Of a stretch of 35,809 nt of DNA, positions 3,591 through 35,768 are shown one piece after another; the stretch's first letter is position 1, and each line of letters begins with the position of its first letter. The stretch spans positions 176,322 to 212,130 of the forward strand of contig CAUDNR010000001.1 in the NCBI GenBank assembly GCA_958430865.1, written 5' to 3'. Below the pieces are notes generated by a model. The model ran no database searches, was not told the origin of the DNA, and worked only from the letters and a program-made list of their open reading frames with translations. Made by a program: the position numbers and the translations under genes. This DNA comes from Entrophospora sp. SA101 (taxonomy: Eukaryota; Glomeromycota; Glomeromycetes; Entrophosporales; Entrophosporaceae).

Positions 3591-4719
3591 AAAAAAATTA
3601 TTCACCAAACTCTACATTCTCTAACCATTAATTCAACTTGTTCTAATAAATACTTTCCTCCGATTATTTCTTCTCCTTCTTGTTCATTCATTGATTCTGT
3701 ACCCTTTTTCATTAATGCAATTCCAACAATTATTGATCTTCCTTCATTAGGATTTTCTTGTACTATTGTATTGGCAATTTGTGACGCATATATTTGATAT
3801 AATGAAGAATATGATCCAAGTAAAAAAATTTCATTTGTTGATATGGTATTTGTTGATGACACTCTAAGTGGTGACATCGTGTCTACTGTTACATGAATCT
3901 ATATATATATATATATAAATATATATAAATTAATTAACTACTATCATTAATTAATTAAATTTTTATCCTATTTACCAAACTACCAATTTTTCCATACTGT
4001 GTTATCACCACAAAAATCTTATTTCGAAAACCACTAATCAACACTTCTGTATGTATTCCATCAATTATTTTTGCAGATTGTTTTGTTTGTATGGGAAATG
4101 TGGTTTCTTCTTGTGAACTTGTCATTTGAAAATTGAATTTTTTTTAGAAATTATGATGTGCAATAACTAAAATAAAAACTGTAATATTTGTGAAGATCAA
4201 AAAATACAATAATAATGACATCATTCATTCATTGATGATTGATTGACGCGTAATATTTTTTAACTTTATTAAAAATCATCTTTCTTTACACATTAAAACT
4301 AAATTTAAAATGTTTAAAAAAGCTAGAACTTTTACAACAAATAAAGGAACGTATCAGAAAAGATTTTTTTCATCAATACAAATAAATCCATTAAAACAAC
4401 CACATCATCTAATAAATCAAAAATCAAAACCAAATTTACAAATACCAAAATTGCTATTATTATTTTTACTCAATAAAGTGGAGCAATACCAACAGCAACA
4501 AAAATCAAATAGTAGTAATTTTATCTTTAAAAAGCATTATAATCGAGAAACTTCAACATATTTCAATGATGCCTACTCAAAATACTATGTTCCACGACCC
4601 GAAGAAATTATTGAATTTCTTGTTCACCATCATCAGTATCCAAAAAAAAACAGATAAAGATGATTATCTAAAAGTTAAATGCCCAGTCTGTCGTCCAAAG
4701 AGAGAACATTATTATTCCA
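3583..4719. repeat. tandem duplication, copy 2 (PAC3 + 5' Twinkle)
   Basis: Second copy of 2036-3171. Here the Twinkle part continues into the full gene. It differs by one additional A in the run at about 4642-4650. Confidence 0.9.
3602..4125 (-). CDS. PSMG3: proteasome assembly chaperone 3 (PAC3/PSMG3), copy 2
   Basis: Same two-exon structure as copy 1 shifted by 1547: exons 3976-4125 and 3602-3898, 148 aa, with no coding difference seen. Both copies keep start, splice sites and stop, so the organism may carry two active PAC3 genes, or the assembly holds the locus twice. The downstream flank (3' side, below 3602) is the 8.2-8.6-kb-derived insert, so the two copies should have different 3' untranslated regions. 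Because the duplicated block includes the shared promoter, both copies are expected to start from the same regulatory sequence. Confidence 0.85.
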
Positions 4720-6847
4720 TGATGATTAACATAAAAAATGGGACTTTTGATTGTCCATCTTGTTCAGTAAAGGGTGCTTGGAATGACTATCTGCAGATGC
4801 TAAATAAAACTGAATTGTATAAAATTATTTATTCGATAAAAAATGCATTTGAAGAATTAAGTATTGAATTTACAAAAAAATACAACGATTTAGTAAACTA
4901 TAAAAATGAATTAATGAATCATTCACAAGTTATCGCTAATATTTTAGACAAATTTAAAATTACTTATGATACATTAAGAGATTATGAAGTTGGTGTGGCA
5001 AGATACATCAATAACAATCCTACAGTTCCAAACATTCCTCAAAGTTGGTTGAAGAATCCCTCGGATCTAAGATATGGTGAATTATGTATAACATTTCCAA
5101 GAATTGCACCTTCTTTTAATGACTTAAAATATTGCACAGAATTAAAAACATCTATAGCAAGAATTAAAGCCTGTTCAATAAATAGGGATTTTGAATTAGT
5201 GGCATACGACCCACCATCATTTCAGGCAGGTCTTTTTGGTTATCACTTGGCATCATTAGAGACTGAAACGATCATTTTAGCTGGAAATGAATTTGATGCA
5301 ATGGCAGCATACCAGGAAACAAAAATACCTGCCTTTTGTCTACCTACTGAAAATAGCCAATTACACCTTCAAATTCTTCCTCTGTTACATAGGTTTTCTA
5401 AAATTTATGTTTGGTTGGATGATGATGTTATTGGTCAAGACATGTCAGAAATGTTTGTCAAGAAGTTGGGGATTGAGCGTTGTTTAATAGTGAATACACG
5501 TTGTGGCAGTTTAGATGGACCTCTTAATGCTAGTCAAGCATTAATAATGGGAAGAAATCTGATTCAAATACTTTCTAATTCTAAACCATTACCACATGAA
5601 CAAATTATTAATTTTGATCATATTAAAGATGGAGTATATAGAGAAATCATTAATCCAGACCAAGTTCGTGGTGTCATGTCTAACGATCTTCCTGCATTAA
5701 ACAAAACACTTAAAGGACATCGTCCAGGTGAAATGACCATTTTTAGCGGTGGGACTGGCACAGGGAAAACCACCGTTTTAAGTCAACTTTCTTTAGATTA
5801 TTGTATATCAGGTGTTAGTACATTATGGGGAAGTTTTGAAATTCCAAATGTAAGATTGGCAAAAAAAATGTTGCAACAATTTGCTGAAAAAGATTTATCA
5901 CAACACCCTGAAGAATTTTCTGAATGGGCTGCAAAATTTCAACAGGCAAAGTGGTTCTGAAATATATTTATATTTATTTATTTATCTATTTATATATTAA
6001 ATTAATCATTGTCTATTTTCATTATCACAAATGCTAGCTTCCGATGTATTTTCTAAAATTTTTTGGAAGTACAGAAATTGATACAGTCATTGAAGCAATG
6101 AATCATGCAACGTTTGCTTATGACGTTCGACATATAATCATAGATAATTTACAATTTATGACATCAGATTTATGTAGATTCAATGACAGGTGGGAATATC
6201 ATGATCGTACCATATCAAAATTTCGTAGCTTTGCAACCGAGAAAAATGTTCATATCACATTGGTGGTGCATCCACGAAAAGATAGCAGGGATTTGTTAGA
6301 TATTAATTCAATATTTGGATCTGCTAAAGTATCACAGGAAGCAGATAATATTGTTATCCTTCAAAAAATAGCAAAAGATGAGGGCGAATTTAGATATTTG
6401 GATATTAGGAAAAATAGGTAATCATTGGAAAAAAAAATTTGAAATCAATAATTAATAATAAATTTTTATTATTATTATAGATTTGATGGTACATTAGCAT
6501 CTATACCTATCGAATTTGTACCAGAAACTCTGAAGGTACACTTATTAATTAAATTCTATTACCATAATCACAACGTTAATGCTAATGTTCTCTTACTAAT
6601 AATAGATTAGACAAATAGATGATCATTTTAATCCTAATTCGCGAGGAAAACCACGTTGTAAGTAAAAGCTAAAAAAATTAGTTAACATCATTATCATTAT
6701 AATTTATTTAACCAACCATTTTATATTATGTACATGTATATTGAATTAATATGCACAGCACCTTACAAATCTAGACCAGTAAGAAAAGATCCATTTGCAT
6801 ACACTATAAAAGATGTAGATATGATCCCATTAGAGGGGACAATTTAG
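4310..6847 (+). CDS. Twinkle-like mitochondrial DNA primase-helicase, with a one-base frame break
   Basis: T7 gp4/Twinkle-type hexameric helicase of mitochondrial DNA replication. Exons 4310-5945, 6038-6417, 6481-6535, 6606-6657 and 6759-6847 give about 736 aa once the extra A near 4642-4650 is discounted. N-terminus is basic with RKRFFSS-like residues, fitting a mitochondrial presequence. Zinc ribbon: CPVC (about aa 124) and CPSC (about aa 147). TOPRIM: LAGNEFDAMAAY and VWLDDDVIGQD. RecA-like core: Walker A GGTGTGKTT (about aa 482), HIIIDNLQFM as Walker B, then VVHPRKD, GSAKVSQEADNIVIL and KNRFDGT. Intron 1 (5946-6037) is a GC-AG intron: joining FQQ to LPMYFLKFFG restores the family pattern, whereas reading through stops at once. 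As written the start frame ends at 4657 because of the 9-A run. This is a real frameshift or a homopolymer error. Confidence 0.88.
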
Positions 6848-13449: not shown

Positions 13450-15289
13450 AAAAAAATAAAAAATTTTATTGTAGCTTTAAAAAAAAATTTTTTGACGTTA
13501 ATATAAAAATGATTGGCATTAGAAGAAAATTTCATTCATTCAATTATTTTATGTAATAATCATTGTATGATGTTTGATTTTTTTTTTTATTATGATAGTG
13601 GCGTGATCTCAAAAATCATTTTTCACTTAGTAAGTCATGTGTAAAAATTCATGTTACATGTGTTCCATCATTGGAAATAAATTTGCAACATATACAATTT
13701 AAATTAAACGTAAAACATTTATATCATTTTTTCATTCAATAATTAAACCCAATTGTCAAGTTTTAACACATCTTAACAGCATAATAAAAAATGTGTATAT
13801 GTAAAGAGCGGTCAAATATTTTATTGAGAAAAAAAAAAAATAAAAGATGCGAAGTTTTTGGATTATTAATTTTAGTATTATTAATAATTAGTTGGATAGC
13901 CTTTAGATTTTTTTACAGCATCTATTCTCCTAGACATACTATCAACTAAATTTGCCAATGTCTCTATGTCAATTTGGTACGCTCAACAACAGATAATTCT
14001 CTAATTTTAGTCATCTGATTTAAATATATGATTTTTTGTGAAAAACAATGTGAAGATCTAAAAACAATTTTGCTTAATACATAAAAGTGATTGTGATAAT
14101 AAAATTTTGAGTTATTTTTATTTCACTTTGTTCAATTATTTCCAGCGATCTGCAAAATTGCCAATGGCAGGTGAGTGTATAAAGTATACGGAATTTTTAT
14201 GGAAAAAATTATAAAGCAATATAATAATAATAATTTTTTATTGCCATGAGAAAAAACGTATCAAATTAACTGAAATTACCATAACTCAGTCAATATATGG
14301 CTGTTTTGGATAAAAAAAAACTGCCATTTGAATTCTCTCAATGAGGTGTCTAATTCATAAAATTCTAATCCCTAATTATTGAGATATTTTTGTTTACTGT
14401 ATATTGTTATGAAAATTAAAACACCATTATATTACCTTTATGATGCTATTCTAATAAGCCATGTTTCATTAAAGTTGGATTATTGGATATGACATAATTT
14501 CAACCATTTCAACTTCATGTATAGTATGAACATGTAAAGCAATTAATAATATTGTAGTCTTCGCCTCATATTTATCTGCTAATTCTTTAATTGAAGCTTG
14601 ATATCATCTAAAAATATAAGATAGCATCTAATAAAAAACAATGTTATGTAAAACAGTTAAATATAAAAAATACAATGATTTTTGTTTGATTTTTGTTCAA
14701 GTTAAATCATCAAGAATATAATAATAAGATCAGCAGTACGCAGTAAATATATATAAAAAATACAATATTTATTCACCAATTCCAAGTTATCATCTGATCA
14801 AGTATGAAAAATAATCTTAATACAGTGTAATAAGCCACAGAATCTGCAAGCGAATCTTTTCAATTGAAGATAAATCTTTCTATTAGAAACACATTATACA
14901 ATTAGAATAATAAATAAGAAGAAAAGAAGAAAGTATGTTTGTTAATAAGTAAATATTTATTAATATAATTTTTTTTTGATATGTTGCGGTGAATTTTCTG
15001 CACAAATCCTGCTAATAGATTATTGGCTACCTTTAATGTAACACGTGTGCCTGCACTCAATTTCACACACTGGATGTAACTTTATTAATCATTCCCATTT
15101 AAATTGACACATATAAATCTTTTCAAATTATAATAAACACTTATTGTATATGAATTGTTTTATTTTATTTTTACTTCTATGTTATAATATAAACATTATA
15201 ATTTGCATGAATCTTAAGCAACGTAAAATAAAGATAAATATAAGATGAAGTAAAAAAAGTTAGAGATAAATGAAGTTATCAAAGAGCCA
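13450..15289. other. long intergenic stretch, no gene seen
   Basis: Very AT-rich with many short homopolymers. No reading frame, inverted-repeat element or RNA gene could be supported on either strand. It lies downstream of microexon gene A and may hold its polyadenylation region. Confidence 0.4.
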
Positions 15290-18246
15290 AAGAGCAATAC
15301 AGCCTATTTACTCTATTTTCTATTTAAAATAAAATGAAAATCAATCAACAGTTAATATTTTTTCAAAAAAATTGACTGTAATAATGGTAAATGATGAGAA
15401 TACTTGCCTATTTATTATTTAAAACAAATTGAAAATCAAACAGTTAATATTTTTCAAGCTGTAATAATAGTAAACAATAAAAATACTTGCCTATTTATTA
15501 TTTAAAATAAAATAAAATGAAAATCAATCAACAGTTAATATGTTTACAAAAACAATGGTAATGGTAGTAAATAATAAAAATACTTACCTTTTATTTATTA
15601 TTTAAAATAAATGAAAATCAACAGTTAATATTTTTCAAGAATAATATTGGATGTAATAATAATGACAAGAATACTTACCTCTATATTTATTGTTTAAGAT
15701 AAAGTGAAAACCAACAGTTAATATTTTCAAAAAAAAACAACGATATTGACTGTAATAATAGTGAAATGATGAAAATACTTACAGGAGGAATTCTATATTT
15801 ATTATTTAAGATAAAATGAAAATCAACAGTTAATATGTTTTCAAAAATAATGATATTGACTGTAATAATAATGATGAAAATACTCACACCACCATTACAC
15901 TATTTATTATTTAAGATAAAACAAAAATCAATAGTTAATAAACAATGATATTGACTGTAATAATAGTGAAATGATAAAAATACTCACACACTATTTATTA
16001 TTTAAAACGAAAATCAACAGTTAATATTTTCAAAAAAACAATGATATTGACTGTAACAATAGTGAAATGATGAGAATACTTACAGTCTATATTTATTATT
16101 TAAAATAAAATGAAAAACCAACAGTTAATATTTTCAGAAAAACAATGATATTAACTGTAACAATAGTGAAATGATGATAATACTTACACACTATATTTAT
16201 TATTTAAGATAAAACGAAAATCAATAGTTAGTGTTTTCAGAAAAACAATGATATTGACTGTAACAATAGTGAAATGATGAGAAAGAATACTTACATACTA
16301 TATTTATTTATTAAGATAAAATGAAAATCAACAGTTAATATTTTTTCAAAAAAAACAATGATATTGACTGTAATAATAGTGAAATGTTGAAAATACTTAC
16401 ATCCTATATTTATTATTTAAAATAAAATGAAAATCAACAGTTAATATGTTTTCAAAAATAATGATATTGACTGTAACAATGGTGAAATGATGAGAAAGAA
16501 TACTTACATGCTATATTTATTATTTAAAATAAAACAAAAATCAACAGTTAATATGTTTCAAAAACAATGATATTAGTAGTGAAATGATAAAAACACTCAC
16601 ACACTATTTATTATTTAAGATAAAACAAAAATCAACAGTTAATATTTTCAAAAAAACAATGATATTGACTGTAACAATAGTGAAATGATGAGAATACTTA
16701 CGCTCTATATTTATTATTTAAAATAAAATGAAAAATCAACAGTCAATATGTTTTCAAAAGCAATGATATTGACTGTAACAATAGTGAAATGATGAGAATA
16801 CTTACAGACTATATTTATTATTTAAGATAAAACGAAAATTGATAGTTAATATGTTTTCAAAAACAATGATATTGACTGTAACAATAGTGAAATGATGAGA
16901 ATACTTACAGTCTATATTTATCATTTAAGATAAAACAAAAATCAACAGTTAATGTGTTTTCAAAAACAATGATATTAATAGTGAAATGATGAGAATACTT
17001 ACAGACTATATTTATTATTTAAGATAAAACGAAAATCAACAGTTAATAATATTGACTGTAACAATAGTGAAATGATGAGAATACTTACAGACTATATTTA
17101 TTATTTAAGATAAAATGAAAATCAACAGTTAATATGTTTTCAAAAACTATGATATTGACTGTAGTAATAATAATTATGAGAATACTTACATCCTATATTT
17201 ATTATTTAAAATAAAATGAAAATCAACAGTTAATAAACAATGATATTGACTGTGATAATAGTGAAATGATAAAAATACCCACACACTATTTATTATTTAT
17301 GATAAAATGAAAAACAACAGTTAATAAATATGTTTTCAAAAACAATGATATTAATAGTGAAATGATGAGAATACTTACACTCTATATTTATTTATTAAGA
17401 TAAAACAAAATCAACAGTTAATATTTTCAAAAAACAATAATATTGACTGTAACAATAATGAAATGATGAGAATACTTACAGTCTATATTTATTATTTAAA
17501 ATAAAATGAAAATCAACAGTTAATAAATATGTTTTCAAAAACAATGATATTGACTGTATAATAATAATGATGATAATACTTACATCCTATATTTATTATT
17601 TAAGATAAAATGAAAATCAACAGTTAATATGTTTTCAAAAACAATGATATTGACTGAAGTAATAATAATGATGAGAATACTTACATACTATATTTATTAT
17701 TTAAAATAAAATGAAAATCAACAGTTAGTATGTTTTCAAAAACAATGATATTACTTGCTATATTTATTATTTAAGATAAAATGAAAATCAACAGTTAATA
17801 TGTTTTCAAAAACAATGATATTGAGTGTAATGATAATGAAATGATGAGAATACTTACAGTCTATATTTATTATTTAAGATAAAACGAAAATCAACAGTTA
17901 ATAAATATGTTTTCAAAAACAATGATATCGACTGTAGTAATAATAATGATGAGAATACTTACCACCTACCCATTATTTAAAATAAAATGAAAACTAGCAG
18001 TTAATATGTTTTCGAAACAATGATATTGAGTGTAATAATAGTACAAAAAATACTTACACTATTTATTATTTAAAATAAAATGAAAATCAATAATTAATAT
18101 TTTTTCAAAAACAATGATATTGACTATAATAATAGTACAAAAATACTTACGGGCCTATTTATTATTTAAAATCAAATGAAACCCAATAGTTAGTATTTTT
18201 TCAAAAACAATGGTACCGAATATAATGATAATAATAAATGAAGTAC
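15290..18246 (-). repeat. tandem intron-unit array A
   Basis: About 29 units of 67-106 bp. On the minus strand each unit is GTAAGTATTCTCATCATTTC, a variable middle containing CAATATCATTGTTTTTGAAA, then the branch-point-like ATATTAACTG and a T-rich stretch ending AAATAATAAATATAG. Between the TAG of one unit and the GT of the next lie usually three bases that differ from unit to unit. The four lowest units (15394, 15486, 15583 and 15671) have the acceptor AG directly against GT/GCAAGT or separated by only AG. A plain satellite would not keep splice signals constant and exactly three bases variable. Confidence 0.85.
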
Positions 18247-18336
18247 TTCGCTTCGCCAAATTCTTGTTATCAATTGGGCTTGCTAAAGCCATAACAGCAA
18301 AGATAATCAAAAAAAGAAGAGAATATTGAATTTCAT
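15783..18336 (-). CDS. secreted cysteine-rich peptide gene A, built from single-codon microexons
   Basis: Exon 1 (18247-18336) encodes a signal peptide (MKFNILFF...LIIFAVMALASP) and pro-region NKNLAKR ending in a Kex2-type Lys-Arg site. Exon 1 as written is one T short in a T7 run, so the ATG and KR are out of frame. It ends in phase 1. Microexons (lowest coordinate): GCCC 18151, T 18058 (together completing Ser-Pro), GTG 17963, ACT 17858, CAA 17755, TAT 17685, GAT 17584, ACT 17480, AGT 17379, TGT 17283, GAT 17190, TCT 17089, TCT 17003, ACT 16909, TCT 16806, AGC 16702, TGT 16601, CAT 16508, GAT 16401, TAT 16295, TGT 16188, ACT 16084, TGT 15988, then a 12-base exon 15888-15899 (Cys-Asn-Gly-Gly) and 15783-15792 (Asn-Ser-Ser). 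No stop appears. Cys spacing is C-x6-C-x3-C-x-C-C. The end is either a TAG formed with the next AG, or read-through adding a sixth Cys. Confidence 0.75.
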
Positions 18337-19508
18337 TTTGATTTGTTCAGATAATTTTGTCAAGTTTTCACTTTTTTTTTGATTTTCAAATTGTATAGAA
18401 TTACTTACTGTAATAGTATTTATAAAAAAAATGAAAGCGAATTTTTGTTTTTAAATTGCATGCAGTTGTTATTGGAATTAAGATTTAAAGCTGATTTGTT
18501 GGTCGAAATACCCGAATCTTTTTATTTCTATTTATATCTTTATTTATTTATTCCTTATATTTCTTATTTCATTTCTTATCATAATAAACGTCATTTAATA
18601 CTTAATATTAATATTAATATCAAATTTAGGGAATTGTTATTCGCACCCCACGCGACTAAGTGTAGTAATGTGACCAATGAATGGCTTGACCAAATAAAAC
18701 GCTTAGCAAATGCCTTCGATCAAATAAATCGTTGGTACTAATACTACTAAGCTTGACAGTATTATTATTACTACTACTATCGTTATTATTATTACTATTA
18801 TTTACTATTGTTATTATAATATCTCGCATTTAATGGTTCAAATTATTTGTTTTTTTCATTATGAATTTGAGTATTCGAATTATATTGAAAGTTTTATTCG
18901 AATAAACGAATAAAACTAATAAAACTAATAGAACGAATAATTCGAATAGAACGAATAATAATTTGAATTAAAATATGACTTTTATCCTGCTACGATATAC
19001 ATATTGTATTTTGTTTTTTGAGCAAATGTATGTTTTTTTTTGTCATTCAAAGTAGTGTAGGCGGACCCATCTCAACTAAATGTCTATGCCATTGAATTCT
19101 GCACTAAAATCCCAGACGTTAAGAAAATTTTTTTTAGCCGGCTAACATCACTATCTGCAACTTTAAATACTCAAGTTTAGAAAATGATGTAACTTACTTT
19201 TATTATTATGTGCTAAAGAAGGATTAAAACGGGCATTATTATTATCAACTTTTAAATGATTTAAGTGTTTGTATGTCTTATTGTGTATGCGTAACTGGTC
19301 AGATTAACCCTAAAAAAATTTATTTACTCTACCAAAAAAAAAAAACTATTTTACTATTCAATAGCCCGTCAAATCAACGGCACTACCTCAAAACTAATGG
19401 ATTATAAGGTATTCATAACGTCATACTGAATTTTGAGGTTCAAAAAAAATCGACGCATATGCTAAAAGTACATTTTTTGAGAACCTAGGTTTTTAATGAT
19501 TTTATACA
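18337..19508 (-). promoter_or_regulatory. upstream region of microexon gene A
   Basis: About 1.17 kb between the signal-peptide ATG and the end of array B. It contains clusters of CGAATAA/TTATTCG words around 18880-18965 and the dispersed repeat at 19240-19475. A 120-codon plus frame (18379-18741) has low-complexity tyrosine/leucine content and only a TTG start, so I treat it as a shadow. Confidence 0.4.
19240..19475 (+). repeat. dispersed repeat, copy 2
   Basis: Same family as 11035-11285 (there inverted) and 24325-24560. It lies in the upstream region of microexon gene A. Confidence 0.7.
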
Positions 19509-22500
19509 ATACTTACATCCTATATTTATTATTTTAAAACGAAGCGAAAATCAACAGTTAATATCAAATATTGGCTGTAATAATAATGATGAAAATACTT
19601 ACATCCTATATTTATTATTTAAGATAAAACGAAAATCAACAGTTAATATGTTTTCAAAAAAACAATGATATTGATTGATTGTAACAATAGTGAAATGATG
19701 AGAATACTTACAGGCTATATTTATTATTTAAAATAAAATAAAAATCAACAGTTAATATGTTTTCAAAAAAACAATGATATTGACTGTAACAATAGTGAAA
19801 TGATGAGAATACTTACACCCTATTTATTATTTAAAATAAAATAACAATCAACAGTTAATATCAAATATTTTTCAAGAATAATATTGTAATAATAATGATG
19901 CAAATACTTACAGGCTATATTTATTATTTAAAATAAAATAAAAATCAACAGTTAATATCATCAAATATTTTTCAAGAATAATATTGTAATAATAATGATG
20001 CAAATACTTACCAGCTATTTATTATTTAAGATAAAGCGAAAATCAACAATTAATATGTTTTCAAAACAATGATATTGACTGTAATAATAGTGAAATGATG
20101 AGAATACTTACAGGCTATATTTATTATTTAAAATAAAATAAAAGTCAGCAGTTAATATGTTTTCAAAAAAAACAATGATATTGAGTGTAATAATAGTGAA
20201 ATGATGAGAATACTTACAGGCTATTTATTACATAAAATAAAACGAAAATCAACAGTTAATATGTTTTCAAAAACAATGATATTGACTATAGTAATAATAA
20301 TGATGAAAATACTCACACACTATATTTATTATTTAAAATAAAATGAAAATCAATAGTTAATATTTTCAGAAAAACAATGATATTGACTGTAACAATAGTG
20401 AAATGATGAGAAAGAATACTTACAAACTATATTTATTATTTAAGATAAAACAAAAATCAACAGTTAATATTTTTTCAAAAAAAACAATGATATTCACTGT
20501 AACTATAGTGAAATGTTGAAAATACTTACTTCCTATATTTATTATTTAAAATAAAATGAAAATCAACAGTTAATAAACAATGATATTGACTGTAATAATA
20601 GTGAAATGATGAAAATACTTACAGCCTATATTTATTACATAAAATAAAATGAAAATCAACAGTTAATATGTTTTCAAAAACAATGATATTAATAGTGAAA
20701 TGATAAAAACACTCACACACTATTTATTATTTAAGATAAAACAAAAATCAACAGTTAATATGTTTTCAAAAAAACAATGATATTGACTGTAATAATAGTG
20801 AAATGATGAGAATACTTACATCCTATATTTATTATTTAAAATAAAATGAAAATCAACAGTTAATATTTTCAGAAAAACAATGATATTAATAGTGAAATGT
20901 TGAAAATACTTACGTTCTATATTTATTATTTAAGATAAAATGAAAATCAACAGTTAATATTTTCAGAAAAACAATGATATTAATAGTGAAATGATAAGAA
21001 TACTTACAGCCTATTTATTATTTAAAATAAAACGAAAATCAACAGTTAATATTTTCAAAAAACAATAATATTGACTGTAATAATAGTGAATGATGAGAAT
21101 ACTTACTAACTATATTTATTACATAAAATAAAATGAAAATCAACAGTTAATAAATATGTTTTCAAAAACAATGATATTAGTAGTGAAATGATAAAAACAC
21201 TCACACACTATTTATCATTTAAGATAAAATGAAAATCAACAGTTAATATGTTTTCAAAAACAATGATATCGACTGTAGTAATAATAATGATGAGAATACT
21301 TACTCTCTATATTTATTATTTAAGATAAAACGAAAATCAACAGTTAATAAACAATGATATTGACTGTAATAGTGAAATGTTGAAAATACTTACTCCCTAT
21401 ATTATTTAAGATAAAATGAAAATCAACAGTTAATAAACAATGATATTGACTGTAATAATAGTGAAATGATGAGAATACTTACATCCTATATTTATTATTT
21501 AAGATAAAACAAAAATCAACAGTTAATAAACAATGATATTGACTGTGATAATAGTGAAATGATAAAAATACCCACACACTATTTATTATTTAAAATAAAA
21601 CAAAAATCAACAGTTAATATGTTTTCAAAATCAATGATATTAATAGTGAAATGATGAGAAAGAATACTTACATCCTATATTTATTATTTAAAATAAAATG
21701 AAAATCAACAGTTAATATTTTCAAAAAAACAATAATATTGACTGTAACAATAGTGAAATGTTGAGAATACTTACATCCTATATTTATTATTTAAAATAAA
21801 ATGAAAATCAACAGTTAATATGTTTTCAAAAATAATGATATTGACTGTAACAATAGTGATGAGAATACTTACAGCCTATATTTATTATTTAAGGTAAAAT
21901 GAAAATCAACAGTTAATATTTTCAAAAAAACAATGATATTGACTGTAATAATAGTGAAATGATAAGAATACTTACGGCCTATTTATTATTTAAAATAAAA
22001 CAAAATCAACAGTTAGTATGTTTTCAAAAGCAATGATATTGACTCTAACAATAGTGAAATGATAAAAATACTCACACACTATTTATTATTTAAGGTAAAA
22101 TGAAAATCAACAGTTAATATTTTTCAAGAATAATATTGGATGTAATAATAATGATGAGAATACTTACACCCTATATTTATTATTTAAGATAAAACAAAAA
22201 TCAACAGTTAATATGTTTTCAAAAACAATAATATCGACTGTAGCAATAATGATGAGAATACTTACAGGCTATATTTATTATTTAAGATAAAACGAAAATC
22301 AACAGTTAATAAATATGTTTTCAAAAACAATGATATTGACTGTAACAATAGTGAAATGATGAGAATACTTACAAACTATTTATTACATAAAATAAAATGA
22401 AAATCAACAGTTAATATTTTCAAAAGAACAATGATATTGATTGTAACAATCGTGAAATGATGAGAATACTTACATTCTATATTTATTATTTAAAATAAAA

Positions 22501-23331
22501 TGAAAATCAACAGTTAATATGTTTTCAAAAACAATGATATTAGTAGTGAAATGATGAGAATACTTACACACTATTTATCATTTAAGATAAAATGAAAATC
22601 AACAGTTAATATTTTCAAAAAAACAATGATATTGACTGTAACAATAGTGAAATGATGAGAATACTTACATCCTATATTTATTATTTAAGATAAAATGAAA
22701 ATCAACAGTTAATATGTTTTCAAAAACAATGATATTGACTGAAGTAATAATAATGATGAGAATACTTACATACTATATTTATTATTTAAAATAAAATGAA
22801 AATCAACAGTTAGTATGTTTTCAAAAACAATGATATTACTTGCTATATTTATTATTTAAGATAAAATGAAAATCAACAGTTAATATGTTTTCAAAAACAA
22901 TGATATTGAGTGTAATGATAATGAAATGATGAGAATACTTACAGTCTATATTTATTATTTAAGATAAAACGAAAATCAACAGTTAATAAATATGTTTTCA
23001 AAAACAATGATATCGACTGTAGTAATAATAATGATGAGAATACTTACCACCTACCCATTATTTAAAATAAAATGAAAACTAGCAGTTAATATGTTTTCGA
23101 AACAATGATATTGAGTGTAATAATAGTACAAAAAATACTTACACTATTTATTATTTAAAATAAAATGAAAATCAATAATTAATATTTTTTCAAAAACAAT
23201 GATATTGACTATAATAATAGTACAAAAATACTTACGGGCCTATTTATTATTTAAAATCAAATGAAACCCAATAGTTAGTATTTTTTCAAAAACAATGGTA
23301 CCGAATATAATGATAATAATAAATGAAGTAC
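19509..23331 (-). repeat. tandem intron-unit array B
   Basis: About 39 units of the same design as array A, with the same donor, branch-point and acceptor words on the minus strand. Its distal end abuts the upstream region of gene A with no spacer. The three-base inserts between units differ in order from array A except for the first five after the Ser-Pro junction. Confidence 0.85.
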
Positions 23332-23421
23332 TTCGCTTCGCCAAATTCTTGTTATCAATTGGGCTTGCTAAAGCCATAACAGCAAAGATAATCAAAAAAA
23401 GAAGAGAATATTGAATTTCAT
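19517..23421 (-). CDS. secreted cysteine-rich peptide gene B, built from single-codon microexons
   Basis: Exon 1 (23332-23421) matches gene A's, including the T7 run that breaks the frame. Microexons (lowest coordinate): GCCC 23236, T 23143, GTG 23048, ACT 22943, CAA 22840, TAT 22770, GAT 22669, TGT 22568, AAT 22474, TTT 22373, CCT 22266, GGT 22168, TGT 22076, GCC 21976, GCT 21873, GAT 21775, GAT 21672, TGT 21576, GAT 21483, GGA 21394, AGA 21304, TGT 21205, TTA 21107, GCT 21008, AAC 20914, GAT 20820, TGT 20717, GCT 20623, GAA 20530, TTT 20424, TGT 20317, CCT 20218, CCT 20112, CTG 20012, CCT 19912, GGT 19817, CCT 19712, GAT 19603, GAT 19517. No stop among 37 codons. Six cysteines are spaced C-x4-C-x4-C-x3-C-x4-C-x3-C, then a Pro-rich acidic tail. 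After the last GAT, read-through stops within five codons; splicing to the TAG near 19345 gives TAA at once. Confidence 0.75.
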
Positions 23422-24593
23422 TTTGATTTGTTCAGATAATTTTGTCAAGTTTTCACTTTTTTTTTGATTTTCAAATTGTATAGAATTACTTACTGTAATA
23501 GTATTTATAAAAAAAATGAAAGCGAATTTTTGTTTTTAAATTGCATGCAGTTGTTATTGGAATTAAGATTTAAAGCTGATTTGTTGGTCGAAATACCCGA
23601 ATCTTTTTATTTCTATTTATATCTTTATTTATTTATTCCTTATATTTCTTATTTCATTTCTTATCATAATAAACGTCATTTAATACTTAATATTAATATT
23701 AATATCAAATTTAGGGAATTGTTATTCGCACCCCACGCGACTAAGTGTAGTAATGTGACCAATGAATGGCTTGACCAAATAAAACGCTTAGCAAATGCCT
23801 TCGATCAAATAAATCGTTGGTACTAATACTACTAAGCTTGACAGTATTATTATTACTACTACTATCGTTATTATTATTACTATTATTTACTATTGTTATT
23901 ATAATATCTCGCATTTAATGGTTCAAATTATTTGTTTTTTTCATTATGAATTTGAGTATTCGAATTATATTGAAAGTTTTATTCGAATAAACGAATAAAA
24001 CTAATAAAACTAATAGAACGAATAATTCGAATAGAACGAATAATAATTTGAATTAAAATATGACTTTTATCCTGCTACGATATACATATTGTATTTTGTT
24101 TTTTGAGCAAATGTATGTTTTTTTTTGTCATTCAAAGTAGTGTAGGCGGACCCATCTCAACTAAATGTCTATGCCATTGAATTCTGCACTAAAATCCCAG
24201 ACGTTAAGAAAATTTTTTTTAGCCGGCTAACATCACTATCTGCAACTTTAAATACTCAAGTTTAGAAAATGATGTAACTTACTTTTATTATTATGTGCTA
24301 AAGAAGGATTAAAACGGGCATTATTATTATCAACTTTTAAATGATTTAAGTGTTTGTATGTCTTATTGTGTATGCGTAACTGGTCAGATTAACCCTAAAA
24401 AAATTTATTTACTCTACCAAAAAAAAAAAACTATTTTACTATTCAATAGCCCGTCAAATCAACGGCACTACCTCAAAACTAATGGATTATAAGGTATTCA
24501 TAACGTCATACTGAATTTTGAGGTTCAAAAAAAATCGACGCATATGCTAAAAGTACATTTTTTGAGAACCTAGGTTTTTAATGATTTTATACA
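22660..24593 (-). repeat. 1.93-kb segmental duplication, copy 2
   Basis: Second copy of 17575-19508. It carries the upstream region, signal exon and first seven microexons of gene B. Beyond 24593 the sequence is single-copy, so the duplication endpoint here is the original flank. Confidence 0.9.
24325..24560 (+). repeat. dispersed repeat, copy 3
   Basis: Third member of the family at 11035-11285 and 19240-19475, in the upstream region of microexon gene B. Confidence 0.7.
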
Positions 24594-30066: not shown

Positions 30067-33000
30067 CCTACTGCTTTTGATGTGCAATCCAATCATTTTC
30101 TCTTTCCATTTGCTGAACAATTTGTTGAGACATTCCCTTTTCTCGAAGTACTTTGTCAACTTCATGATTAAGGTTTGTAATTTCCAATTGTATGTTGTTT
30201 AATTGATTAGTTTTGGCCCTAAATGCATTTTGAAGTTCTCCAAGTTCTTCATCAAAAGCAGATAACTTTTCTCTTTCCTTCTCTAACTCAATTAAAGCGT
30301 TATCATACATTTCCTAAAAAATATAGGCATGCATTCTGAATTTAATTAAACATAATTATAAACATAATACACTTTTAAAATTTTCAGAATAGTATCAATG
30401 ATAAACCTTATTTGTTGTCATTTCTGTTTTCATTGCATCAGCTTCATTCTCTAATTGCTTAATGTTATTATCATAATTTTCTATTTTTTTGTTTGCATTT
30501 TGTAAATCCTCTCCAAGTTGCTCTAAACAATTATATAAAGACGAATCCCCTTTAATCATTCTATTTTTTTAATACATTCCTTTATTGTAATAAAATTTTT
30601 ATAACTTACTAATTTCTAATTTTAAAGTTTGCACTTTTCGTTGCATATCTTTAACATATGCATTCAATTCTGGTAATTCAGATTTCCCTTTGGATACCAT
30701 CCTCTTTTTGTTTTTTTTTTTTTTTTAAAAAAAATTAAAACAAAGTAAATAAATAATAACAAAAACCAATTGATTTAAAATTTACCTTAATATCTTCTAT
30801 TTTTGAATCACGGTTATCATTAAGCTCTCTCATTTCATCTTCAATTCTTTGGCAATCTTGTAATGCATTATGATGTTTATTTTGTGAAGTTACAATTATA
30901 GCCTCTTGCTCACAAATTTGTGATTTTATGTTATCAACAATTTGAATAATCTAACAATAATAATCTTTTTTAAAAATTTAAACAATTATTTATTCAGATA
31001 ATTAATAATTATATATACCTGTGAGTTACTACTTTGTTTTATCTGTTCTTCCAATAATGTAATTGCATGTGATTTCAATTCTAATTCTTTCTTTATTTGA
31101 TTATATCTATTCATAATAGTTTGTGAGTTTCTTAATTCTGAATTTAAACTTTGTAAAACTTGCTTATGAGACTCCAATTCTTTTTTTATATCTTTAAGAG
31201 TTTGCATTTTTGTGAGAATCCCAGCCGAGGGGGGTTTAGATCCACCTTGAAGAGTACCAGATGGATCATAAACATCTCCATCCAAAGTAACAGATTTAGT
31301 ATGGACATTCCTGTTAAACGTGACTCGTTTTGCTGTTTCAGCATCCATGCAAATCAATGTATTGCCAAAAACGTATTCCATTGCTGCTTTTACTTCATTA
31401 GCATAACATATCAAGTTTAATGCCAAATCTACTTTGTCTGGAGCAATTTGTTTAGAAATTGCAAGTTTCTATTACAAAAATAAAAATAATTAATATATAA
31501 TTACATAAATTACAACATCCTTTCCTCTTTTACCTCAGATGACATTTTAGATACTTGGATTCGGTTTAGTGGAATGATAGTCACACGTCTTTTAAGTTGA
31601 CCTCTTTCTAAAAGTTGTGTACCAACATTTTCATTATCTACAACAACCTGAAATTTAATAAATAAACAAATGTTATTTTTTTTTACATTAAAACAAAGCA
31701 ATACAACTATCTATATGACAATAAATAAATAAATATTGTTGTACATTATATAATCTTCCACCAGCACAAATTTCTAAAGCTGTTGAACATTCGGCATATT
31801 TTGAATCTAAAGTAATCAATTCAACAACTAATCCTTTAACTTTATTTCTATTAAAATTTGATGTGGGGTCTTTATAAGTAAACTGAGTATTTCCTAATTG
31901 ACTGGAAATATATTCATATTTCTAACAAAAATAAATGATTAAAAAAAATTACATATATGCAAAAATAATTTTACTAAAAAATATTAAAAATAGGAAACAC
32001 AAACATCTGTTAATTCTTGTATCTTGGATTCTTCAAAGGACTTTTCACGCAATAAGTCTTCTTCTCTACTTGCATTCCAATCAATTTGTGATAAAGCTAT
32101 TTGTAACTGTTGTGCTTCCAATCTTGAAGACTCTAAATCAGATAAAATACCTGTACTATCTCTTGCAGCTTTGGTAGCCAATGGTTCTTTTTCTTTTAAC
32201 TCTTTTTTAAGATGTGAAATTTTTAATTTGGCTTGTTCGATTTCAGTTAATGCCTGAGTTGAATTACTTTTAGCCTCTAGTAAAATAACAAAATATATCT
32301 TGAGCAATTTTTTTTTATCCTCATATAAGTCATATATAAATAAATATGTACCTTGAAGTTGTTCCATATACCCATTTTCCTGACCTTCTTGAGCAGAAAC
32401 ACCAGTTGACAAAGTTTGCAAAAGTTCTTCAGATTTACGAACTTGTTCATTTTTTTGATCATGGATTTCTTTTGCCTCTTCATAATGAGTTTCATGCATT
32501 TTATACTCTTCAGTTTTTTGTATCAAACCTTGTTCTATCTATATAGAAAAGATTATTTATTTAATTGATTATACCCTAGTGAACTTTACTGAAAGAATTA
32601 GCAGTAGTTTTTTTTGAGAATCAAAAAAATTTTGGTTATTTGTTTATTAATTTACAAATACCTCTAATCTATCATCCAAGCATATATCTTTATTGTTTGT
32701 TTCTTCTTGAATGGAAGTTTTATTAAGTTCATATTTTGTATTAATTCTGACCATTTGGTTAGAATATTCAGTTACATTATTTTCCAATTCTTGTAATCTA
32801 CCACCATTAGCCCTTTCCTATAAAACTCTATTGATTAATAATAATAATAATATAAAAGTATTGGAGTGAAAAAAGAAGAATATATAGTTAATAAAAATTA
32901 TACCTTTTCTCTTTTTAAAGATGTTTGTCTGATATCATTTTCTAAAAACTTGAGTTCCTCCTTAAGTTCTTCAATAATTTCTTCTAAATCATTTATTCTG

Positions 33001-34195: not shown

Positions 34196-35768
<1,573 letters not shown>

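Follow-up and report, generated by a model that had tools for sequence, protein, structure and literature searches.

We analysed a stretch of 35,809 nucleotides, hereafter the window, from the glomeromycete Entrophospora sp. SA101 (assembly GCA_958430865.1, contig CAUDNR010000001.1; C1:176322-212130 in our numbering), in a genome of 101,348,593 bases on 2,123 contigs. Its minus strand carries two arrays of intron-like units split by inserts which are mostly 3 bases long. These arrays, which belong to what we call gene A and gene B, had been pointed out in an initial annotation, and direct reading and parsing of the sequence confirmed them. Each gene, read along the minus strand, opens with a leader exon, which an intron with a weak donor separates from exons of 4 nt and 1 nt; a series of single triplets between introns comes next. 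The features are the following.

23332..23421, minus strand: gene A exon 1, a leader with a hydrophobic stretch, a Lys-Arg codon pair and a phase 1 end; frame-broken.
19519..23331, minus strand: gene A array, with 36 one-codon exons from GTG (23050-23048) to GAT (19605-19603).
22660..24593, minus strand: gene A copy of a tandem duplication of 1,934 bp, made of the 5' flank, exon 1 and the first units through GAT.
18247..18336, minus strand: gene B exon 1, a leader identical to gene A exon 1, with the same frame break.
15313..18246, minus strand: gene B array, with exon 2 GCCC (18154-18151), exon 3 T (18058) and 21 one-codon exons.
17575..19508, minus strand: gene B copy of the tandem duplication, 100% identical to 24593-22660.
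15407..15588, minus strand: three zero-length exon sites of gene B (near 15588, 15491 and 15408), where an acceptor AG abuts a donor GTAAGT or GCAAGT.
15000..15312, minus strand: gene B terminal exon and conserved 3' region; the exon starts at 15312, and only this start is placed.

In gene A, intron 1 (23331-23240) is followed by exon 2, GCCC (23239-23236), and by exon 3, a single T (23143). After the last acceptor of the array a further GAT is found at 19519, before the final donor, which brings the number of triplets to 37. The one-codon exons of gene B extend from GTG (17965-17963) to TGT (15990-15988) and are followed by exons of 12 nt (15899-15888), 10 nt (15792-15783) and 2 nt (15680-15679). 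The end of gene B had been placed at 15783. This did not hold, as the gene continues through the 2-nt exon and the three zero-length sites (AG/GT or AG/GC) down to 15312. These sites could be recursive splice sites, or they could be bypassed within one longer last intron. Besides the window itself, the stretch 15000-15420 has full-length matches at 100% identity on contigs C1350 and C1136. Two other claims were borne out: relative to the Lys-Arg frame, the end of exon 1 is in phase 1, and the joined inserts are open, none of their 53 triplets (37 in gene A and 21 in gene B, the first five being common to both) being a stop.

Both breakpoints of the 1,934-bp duplication lie inside array units; gene A continues into the 5' flank of gene B and lacks a terminal exon of its own. 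The perfect identity of the two copies points to a recent tandem duplication, which would have cost gene A its terminal exon. The initial annotation also announced a signal-peptide exon with a Lys-Arg site before each array. The leader is indeed present, but both leaders of the window are frame-broken, with an in-frame stop after nine codons. Therefore, genes A and B may be dead copies. The window copies would then be recently duplicated pseudogenes, whose triplets are clean for lack of time, while the live family is elsewhere; we would bet on neither side of this question. The two stops favour it, as do the 100% identity and the missing terminal exon of gene A. On the other hand, the break in the leader may be an error of sequencing or of assembly, and translation from a later ATG is possible, though it would leave out the hydrophobic stretch. 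The existence of a family is in any case untouched by this explanation, as the leader is open in 33 of the 37 gene models described below.

The unit is not confined to the window. One array stretch of 201 bases has at least 486 matches in its own genome, and the leader region has 40 DNA matches there. We analysed 40 regions, then six, then one. The parser built 47 models, of which 37 were used, ten having been excluded before the counts for truncation at a contig end, broken chains or another phase; models which end early, with no terminal exon, were counted with the units read. Exon length was not a criterion of the parser, and the donors of later introns were restricted to a list of eleven hexamers. 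In the models, the leader is followed by a 4-nt exon, by an exon of 1, 4 or 7 nt, and then by a run of 3-nt exons, about 37 at most, with introns near 97 nt in length; 33 of the 37 models have one triplet exon or more. The genome-wide scan for the unit, which had been suggested as a check, was made with a pattern independent of the parser (an acceptor, 0-12 free bases, a donor), run as searches of the own genome. The architecture recurs: there are 219 + 260 = 479 matches, and 0 with the reversed pattern. These dozens of related loci form one gene family across an Entrophospora genome. We also noted diverged arrays (L059, L060, L061, L063 and L065, on contigs C997, C1699, C65, C1837 and C200) in which the leader ends within the Arg codon, and an unrelated insertion within the intron of one array unit of L043 (contig C1584).

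The lengths of the exons contrast with those of the introns. From the third exon to the first zero-length site, the 37 models contain 531 exons, 343 of them distinct when taken with their flanks, and 324 of these 343 are exactly 3 nt long, while the 412 distinct introns after the first are split 97/142/173 among the three length classes modulo 3. The parser-independent pattern gives the same picture, with inserts of exactly 3 nt in 97 of 100 and 90 of 100 (187 of 200) among the matches listed. The 13 remaining inserts of these 200 are three exons from 3' ends (7, 10 and 10 nt) and ten inserts of 1 or 4 nt, which are exon 3 and exon 2 sequences.

None of the 324 triplets is a stop, against 4.2% predicted by the position-wise base composition and a measured 7.2% in introns. 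In the 25 distinct joined runs, stops number 0 in the 438 codons of frame 0, 17 in the 413 codons of frame +1 (8 of the 25 runs) and 97 in the 413 codons of frame +2 (all 25 runs); the three frames of the reverse strand contain 2, 18 and 23. Downstream, the first in-frame stop is located at most 21 nt from the terminal junction in 16 of the 18 models which reach the terminal exon. One could imagine that the arrays are a non-coding tandem repeat, a minisatellite, with intron-like motifs due to chance and a variable slot of 3 nt. They are tandem and AT-rich, with a period of about 97 nt and a recombination which resembles that of satellites. However, frame 0 is free of stops and the other frames are not, a leader lies upstream and a stop downstream, and the junctions bear the fingerprint described below; we hold such a repeat to be extremely improbable. 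The frame controls, which draw on the same data as the triplet counts, support the claim that the one-codon exons are coding.

The introns after the first (412 distinct, median 97 nt) have the donor GTAAGT in 336 cases and GTGAGT in 40 (GTRAGT in 376 of 412), the branch point TATTAAC in 320 and TACTAAC in 25 (345 in total), and the acceptor TAG in 392. Intron 1 is the only one behind an exon of normal size, and its donor is weak in all 37 models (GTACTT in 21, GTATTT in 13, GTAAAT in 3). This fits with strong signals in the later introns compensating for the missing exon sequence, the contrast with intron 1 being partly built in by the donor list. As a side remark, the weak donor of intron 1 might gate the splicing of the array. 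Zero-length sites, at which an acceptor abuts a donor (AG/GT) as in recursive splicing, are found in 10 of the 18 models reaching the terminal exon, in each case at the 3' end: two or three were called in nine, one in one model and none in eight.

The triplets themselves can be searched for a fingerprint of splicing in the following way. A triplet ending in CA or TA, placed before the G of a donor, makes a competing acceptor CAG or TAG, and a triplet NAG already is one. In acceptor strength, CAG and TAG come ahead of AAG and GAG. The expectation was computed from the amino acids used and from the choice of synonyms in 1,289 reference codons of the open reading frames (ORFs) of the window, which were delimited by a stop on either side and may include some non-coding ends. 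Among the 324 triplets, those ending in CA are seen 0 times (44.8 expected), those in TA once (11.5 expected) and those in AG 0 times (8.9 expected). Triplets ending in AA are not avoided (52 seen, 43.1 expected), and those ending in GA are mildly avoided (7 seen, 12.8 expected). Translation alone does not predict this avoidance of triplets which make CAG, TAG or NAG. It would be a mark left by splicing, and it supports the earlier proposal of splicing at the unit boundaries. The avoidance is not absolute, since phase-shifted arrays contain TCA and ACA triplets.

The fingerprint also bears on the possibility that the genes are real but that the leader is joined directly to the terminal exon, or to a few long-range exons, most triplets remaining unused. 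The donor of intron 1, being weak in every model, leaves room for it, as its use may be regulated. Unused triplets should nevertheless accumulate stops, NCA, NTA and NAG, and no such build-up is seen, which makes this possibility very unlikely in our eyes. Hence, on the frame controls and the triplet fingerprint, we rejected both this explanation and the minisatellite.

When the intact copies are aligned, they share a conserved leader, MKFNISLLFL..ALA, mostly with Lys-Arg; other residues stand at that site in L031 and L032. The layout is of the Kex2 type, with a hydrophobic leader and then a dibasic site, a predicted cleavage, before the mature part. From the look of the leader, that is, a hydrophobic stretch and Lys-Arg, we infer secretion. 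Intact models, among them L012, L030, L032, L021 and L039, give short predicted peptides after the leader. All 20 amino acids are represented, and TGT occurs 51 times where the base composition predicts 18.2. The description of the family as rich in cysteine is right for a part of it only: at least one Cys is present in 22 of the 30 distinct triplet strings, and the 8 others, which include one empty string and peptides of the Gly/Pro/Lys type, have none.

An alignment of ten precursors, compared with about 5.8 billion proteins, gave two matches, P0121 and P0122, and one of seven precursors gave the same two. The two family alignments yielded only these metagenomic proteins, and no annotated protein of the genus. 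In P0122 the leader reads into intron-1 sequence. P0121, from a contig of 1,024 bp (source jgi), carries the leader with Lys-Arg and, behind it, a non-intronic tail of 25 residues; it looks like the product of a spliced mRNA, and it is known as a protein only. Compared with our genome, it finds 57 places at E<=1 and 43 at E<=0.001, with a stop inside the matched part in 2 of the 57. The Gamma-thionin/defensin profile has no match in the precursors L032 and L030 or in P0121. Rfam at the gathering threshold gave 0 matches, as did the search for tRNA. In viral contigs, 29 stretches fit the peptide pattern, none being a relative by tblastn, and the intron core has 0 matches. Separately, an intronless locus, L062 (C106:23200-27200, leader at 181), has a similar leader with Lys-Arg and is defensin-like (Pfam Gamma-thionin, 25.9 bits for a cut-off of 25.1). 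Its leader match is weak (E 0.044); ordinary defensin genes and the array family may have a leader in common.

The turnover of units was followed in seven pairs of copies. L011 and L012 align over 3,154 bases with 0 mismatches and one gap of 289 nt, which corresponds to three units (TGG AAA TGT). For L023 and L026, there are 0 mismatches in 3,156 aligned bases and one gap of 101 nt, corresponding to one unit (CGG). L011 and L013, aligned over 2,754 bases, have 9 mismatches and a single 400-nt gap, corresponding to four units. The pairs L021/L022 and L023/L024 are identical. More diverged pairs (L040/L041, 203 mismatches in 2,038 bases; L034/L036, 228 in 3,753) present many small gaps together with gaps of the size of a unit. 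Whole units, codon plus intron, therefore differ between near-identical copies, in agreement with the gain and loss of residues put forward in the initial annotation. The introns, which it took to be identical, are only nearly so, 5-12% of the aligned flank sites differing in most of the unit pairs compared. In unit pairs with a flank divergence of 0.01-2%, the codon differs in 45 of 67, and 0 of these 45 differences are synonymous; gaps in the introns are uncounted here and the pairs are not independent.

Near-identical donors and acceptors and exons which are mostly multiples of three are also what one would want in a combinatorial reservoir, where transcripts carry different subsets of the codons and one gene gives many peptides. 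The micro-exon genes (MEGs) of flatworms do vary by exon skipping (PMC7653826). Against this, long blocks of residues are kept in fixed order between paralogues (L016/L036, L020/L030), as expected if the full order matters, and we are inclined to doubt that the array is such a reservoir. In L020 (minus strand, C1325:37500-44700) a Cys unit with a damaged donor occurs twice. Its skipping would preserve the frame, and it is a possible natural test of unit skipping.

The explanation which we prefer is that the loci are genes which code for proteins; their introns are predicted to be removed one at a time, a short secreted peptide being built at about one codon per splice. We consider this explanation highly probable. 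The architecture, the single open frame from the leader to the terminal stop, the near-perfect intron signals, the avoidance of triplets and the unit-sized differences between copies are all directly read in the genome. Stepwise splicing is likely because the two splice sites flanking an exon of 3 nt are too close to be occupied at the same time; as in recursive splicing, a 5' splice site would be rebuilt at each joining. On its way through the secretory pathway the peptide would probably lose its leader, and a Kex2-type protease would probably cleave at the Lys-Arg site. Residues are likely to be added and removed without loss of frame when near-identical introns recombine unequally or slip. 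Going further, one can picture a diversification residue by residue, with introns as conserved recombining modules and each exon as one interchangeable codon, the letters possibly chosen by exon skipping; the spliceosome would set, and the genome edit, the peptide letter by letter. The odds for this extended picture seem to us even. A role directed at plant roots, microbes or other hyphae is guesswork.

Several points weigh against the coding explanation. Splicing, secretion and function are inferred from sequence, and the donor list bounds what the later introns could show. In addition to the two window genes, L040 and L041 have a leader which is not open. The other 19 of the 343 distinct exons are 1, 2, 5, 6, 7, 9, 10 or 12 nt long, in many cases at the 3' end of an array, and those of 1, 2, 5, 7 or 10 nt break the rule of whole codons. 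As the units are related by duplication, probabilities based on counts are overstated, and we therefore weighted the contrast between frames above them. Two of the 18 models reaching the terminal exon, L029 and L039, have no stop nearby. L061 has a shifted frame. Followed from the leader with the rule of TAG acceptors, which puts the 3-nt exons of L061 in phase 2, this frame has 24 open codons across a TGA triplet, whereas the phase-0 reading stops there. The parser's choice of acceptor at one exon broke this frame, and the stop vanishes only under the TAG rule. L060, which has its 3-nt exons in phase 1, also contains a TGA triplet, and its frame stays open. TGA triplets occur in L060, L061 and L065; TGA accounts for 7 of the 200 inserts listed, all on contigs C65 (that of L061) and C200. 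Near-identical repeats may be misassembled, and the unit differences between contigs could be differences of assembly. P0121 could be an intronless copy; the W-C-W order of its tail has 0 matches among the arrays of this genome, and its source array is untraced. Finally, the order of an amphipathic helix was tried and rejected, the hydrophobic moment of five joined peptides being ordinary when compared to shuffles (14733, 8981, 11992, 11848 and 19848 of 20000 reach the observed value). The helix-like look of L032 is therefore no evidence.

No description of arrays of one-codon exons was found in open-licence PubMed Central papers, subscription journals and preprints being outside this scope. 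The exons of MEGs measure about 6-36 nt, and those of the bicycle genes of gall-forming aphids are longer than one codon. The comparisons which follow draw on partial texts of the sources cited. By an operational definition (PMC7653826), a MEG has seven exons or more; half or more of these are shorter than 70 nt and divisible by three, and four or more exons of this sort stand in a row. This describes 30 of our 37 predicted models, the length of the terminal exon being assumed; the MEG is therefore the nearest known kind. The MEGs of schistosomes and tapeworms are likewise genes of secreted proteins with consecutive exons divisible by three, in which skipping can change single residues (PMC7653826, PMC5825161). 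They differ from the fungal arrays, which put nearly the whole mature peptide in 3-nt exons between introns that are near-identical repeats, and we claim no homology. Structurally, the arrays fit MEGs in an extreme, apparently undescribed form, a mature peptide written almost wholly in single codons between repeated introns being unmatched in the papers searched. Bicycle genes are fast-evolving candidates for secreted proteins with many small internal exons of the same phase, about 17 exons on average (PMC9168663). Their internal exons are nearly all of phase 2, whereas the fungal exons, of one codon each among repeated introns, are mostly of phase 0: the triplet exons of the analysed arrays are in phase 0, with L061 as a phase-2 array.

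The zero-length sites at the 3' end of the fungal arrays resemble the ratchet points of recursive splicing, where an acceptor abuts a donor and 5' splice sites are rebuilt (PMC8605326, PMC6224609). In the known cases, recursive splicing subdivides long introns or removes a recursive exon, whereas the fungal steps would add one codon each. In the same fungal group, the SP7-like effectors of Glomeromycotina are also secreted, fast-evolving and built of repeats; the passages compared give them a conserved intron before the first repeat and do not mention microexons (PMC11333574). No link in sequence to the arrays emerged, none having been looked for. The AGL proteins of arbuscular mycorrhizal fungi are highly variable, secreted, restricted to Glomeromycotina and provided with a short leader exon, but have one or two introns only, as far as the excerpt goes (PMC8786786).

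If splicing is confirmed, the family shows how far the size of an exon can shrink. A transcript in which over 35 exons of 3 nt follow one another would strongly test stepwise splicing and the recognition of 5' splice sites without exon sequence, and the avoided triplets would be a direct in vivo readout of the sequences which compete as acceptors. If true, this is a natural route by which a secreted peptide of a plant-symbiotic fungus can evolve by whole residues without loss of frame, and it would explain why genes made of one-codon exons escape annotation.

The minus-strand ORFs 30986-31465 and 34931-35233 of the window, with SMC hinge and RRM domains, are ordinary neighbours of genes A and B and have exons of normal size. 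The ORF 4416-5960 encodes a Twinkle-type helicase, to which an Entrophospora candida protein is 96% identical over 88% and an Entrophospora sp. SA101 protein 85% identical, another match from SA101 reaching 100% over 39%. Beside this ORF lie two pairs of repeats, 2035-2334/3582-3881 and 3172-3471/8194-8493, each identical over 300 bases.

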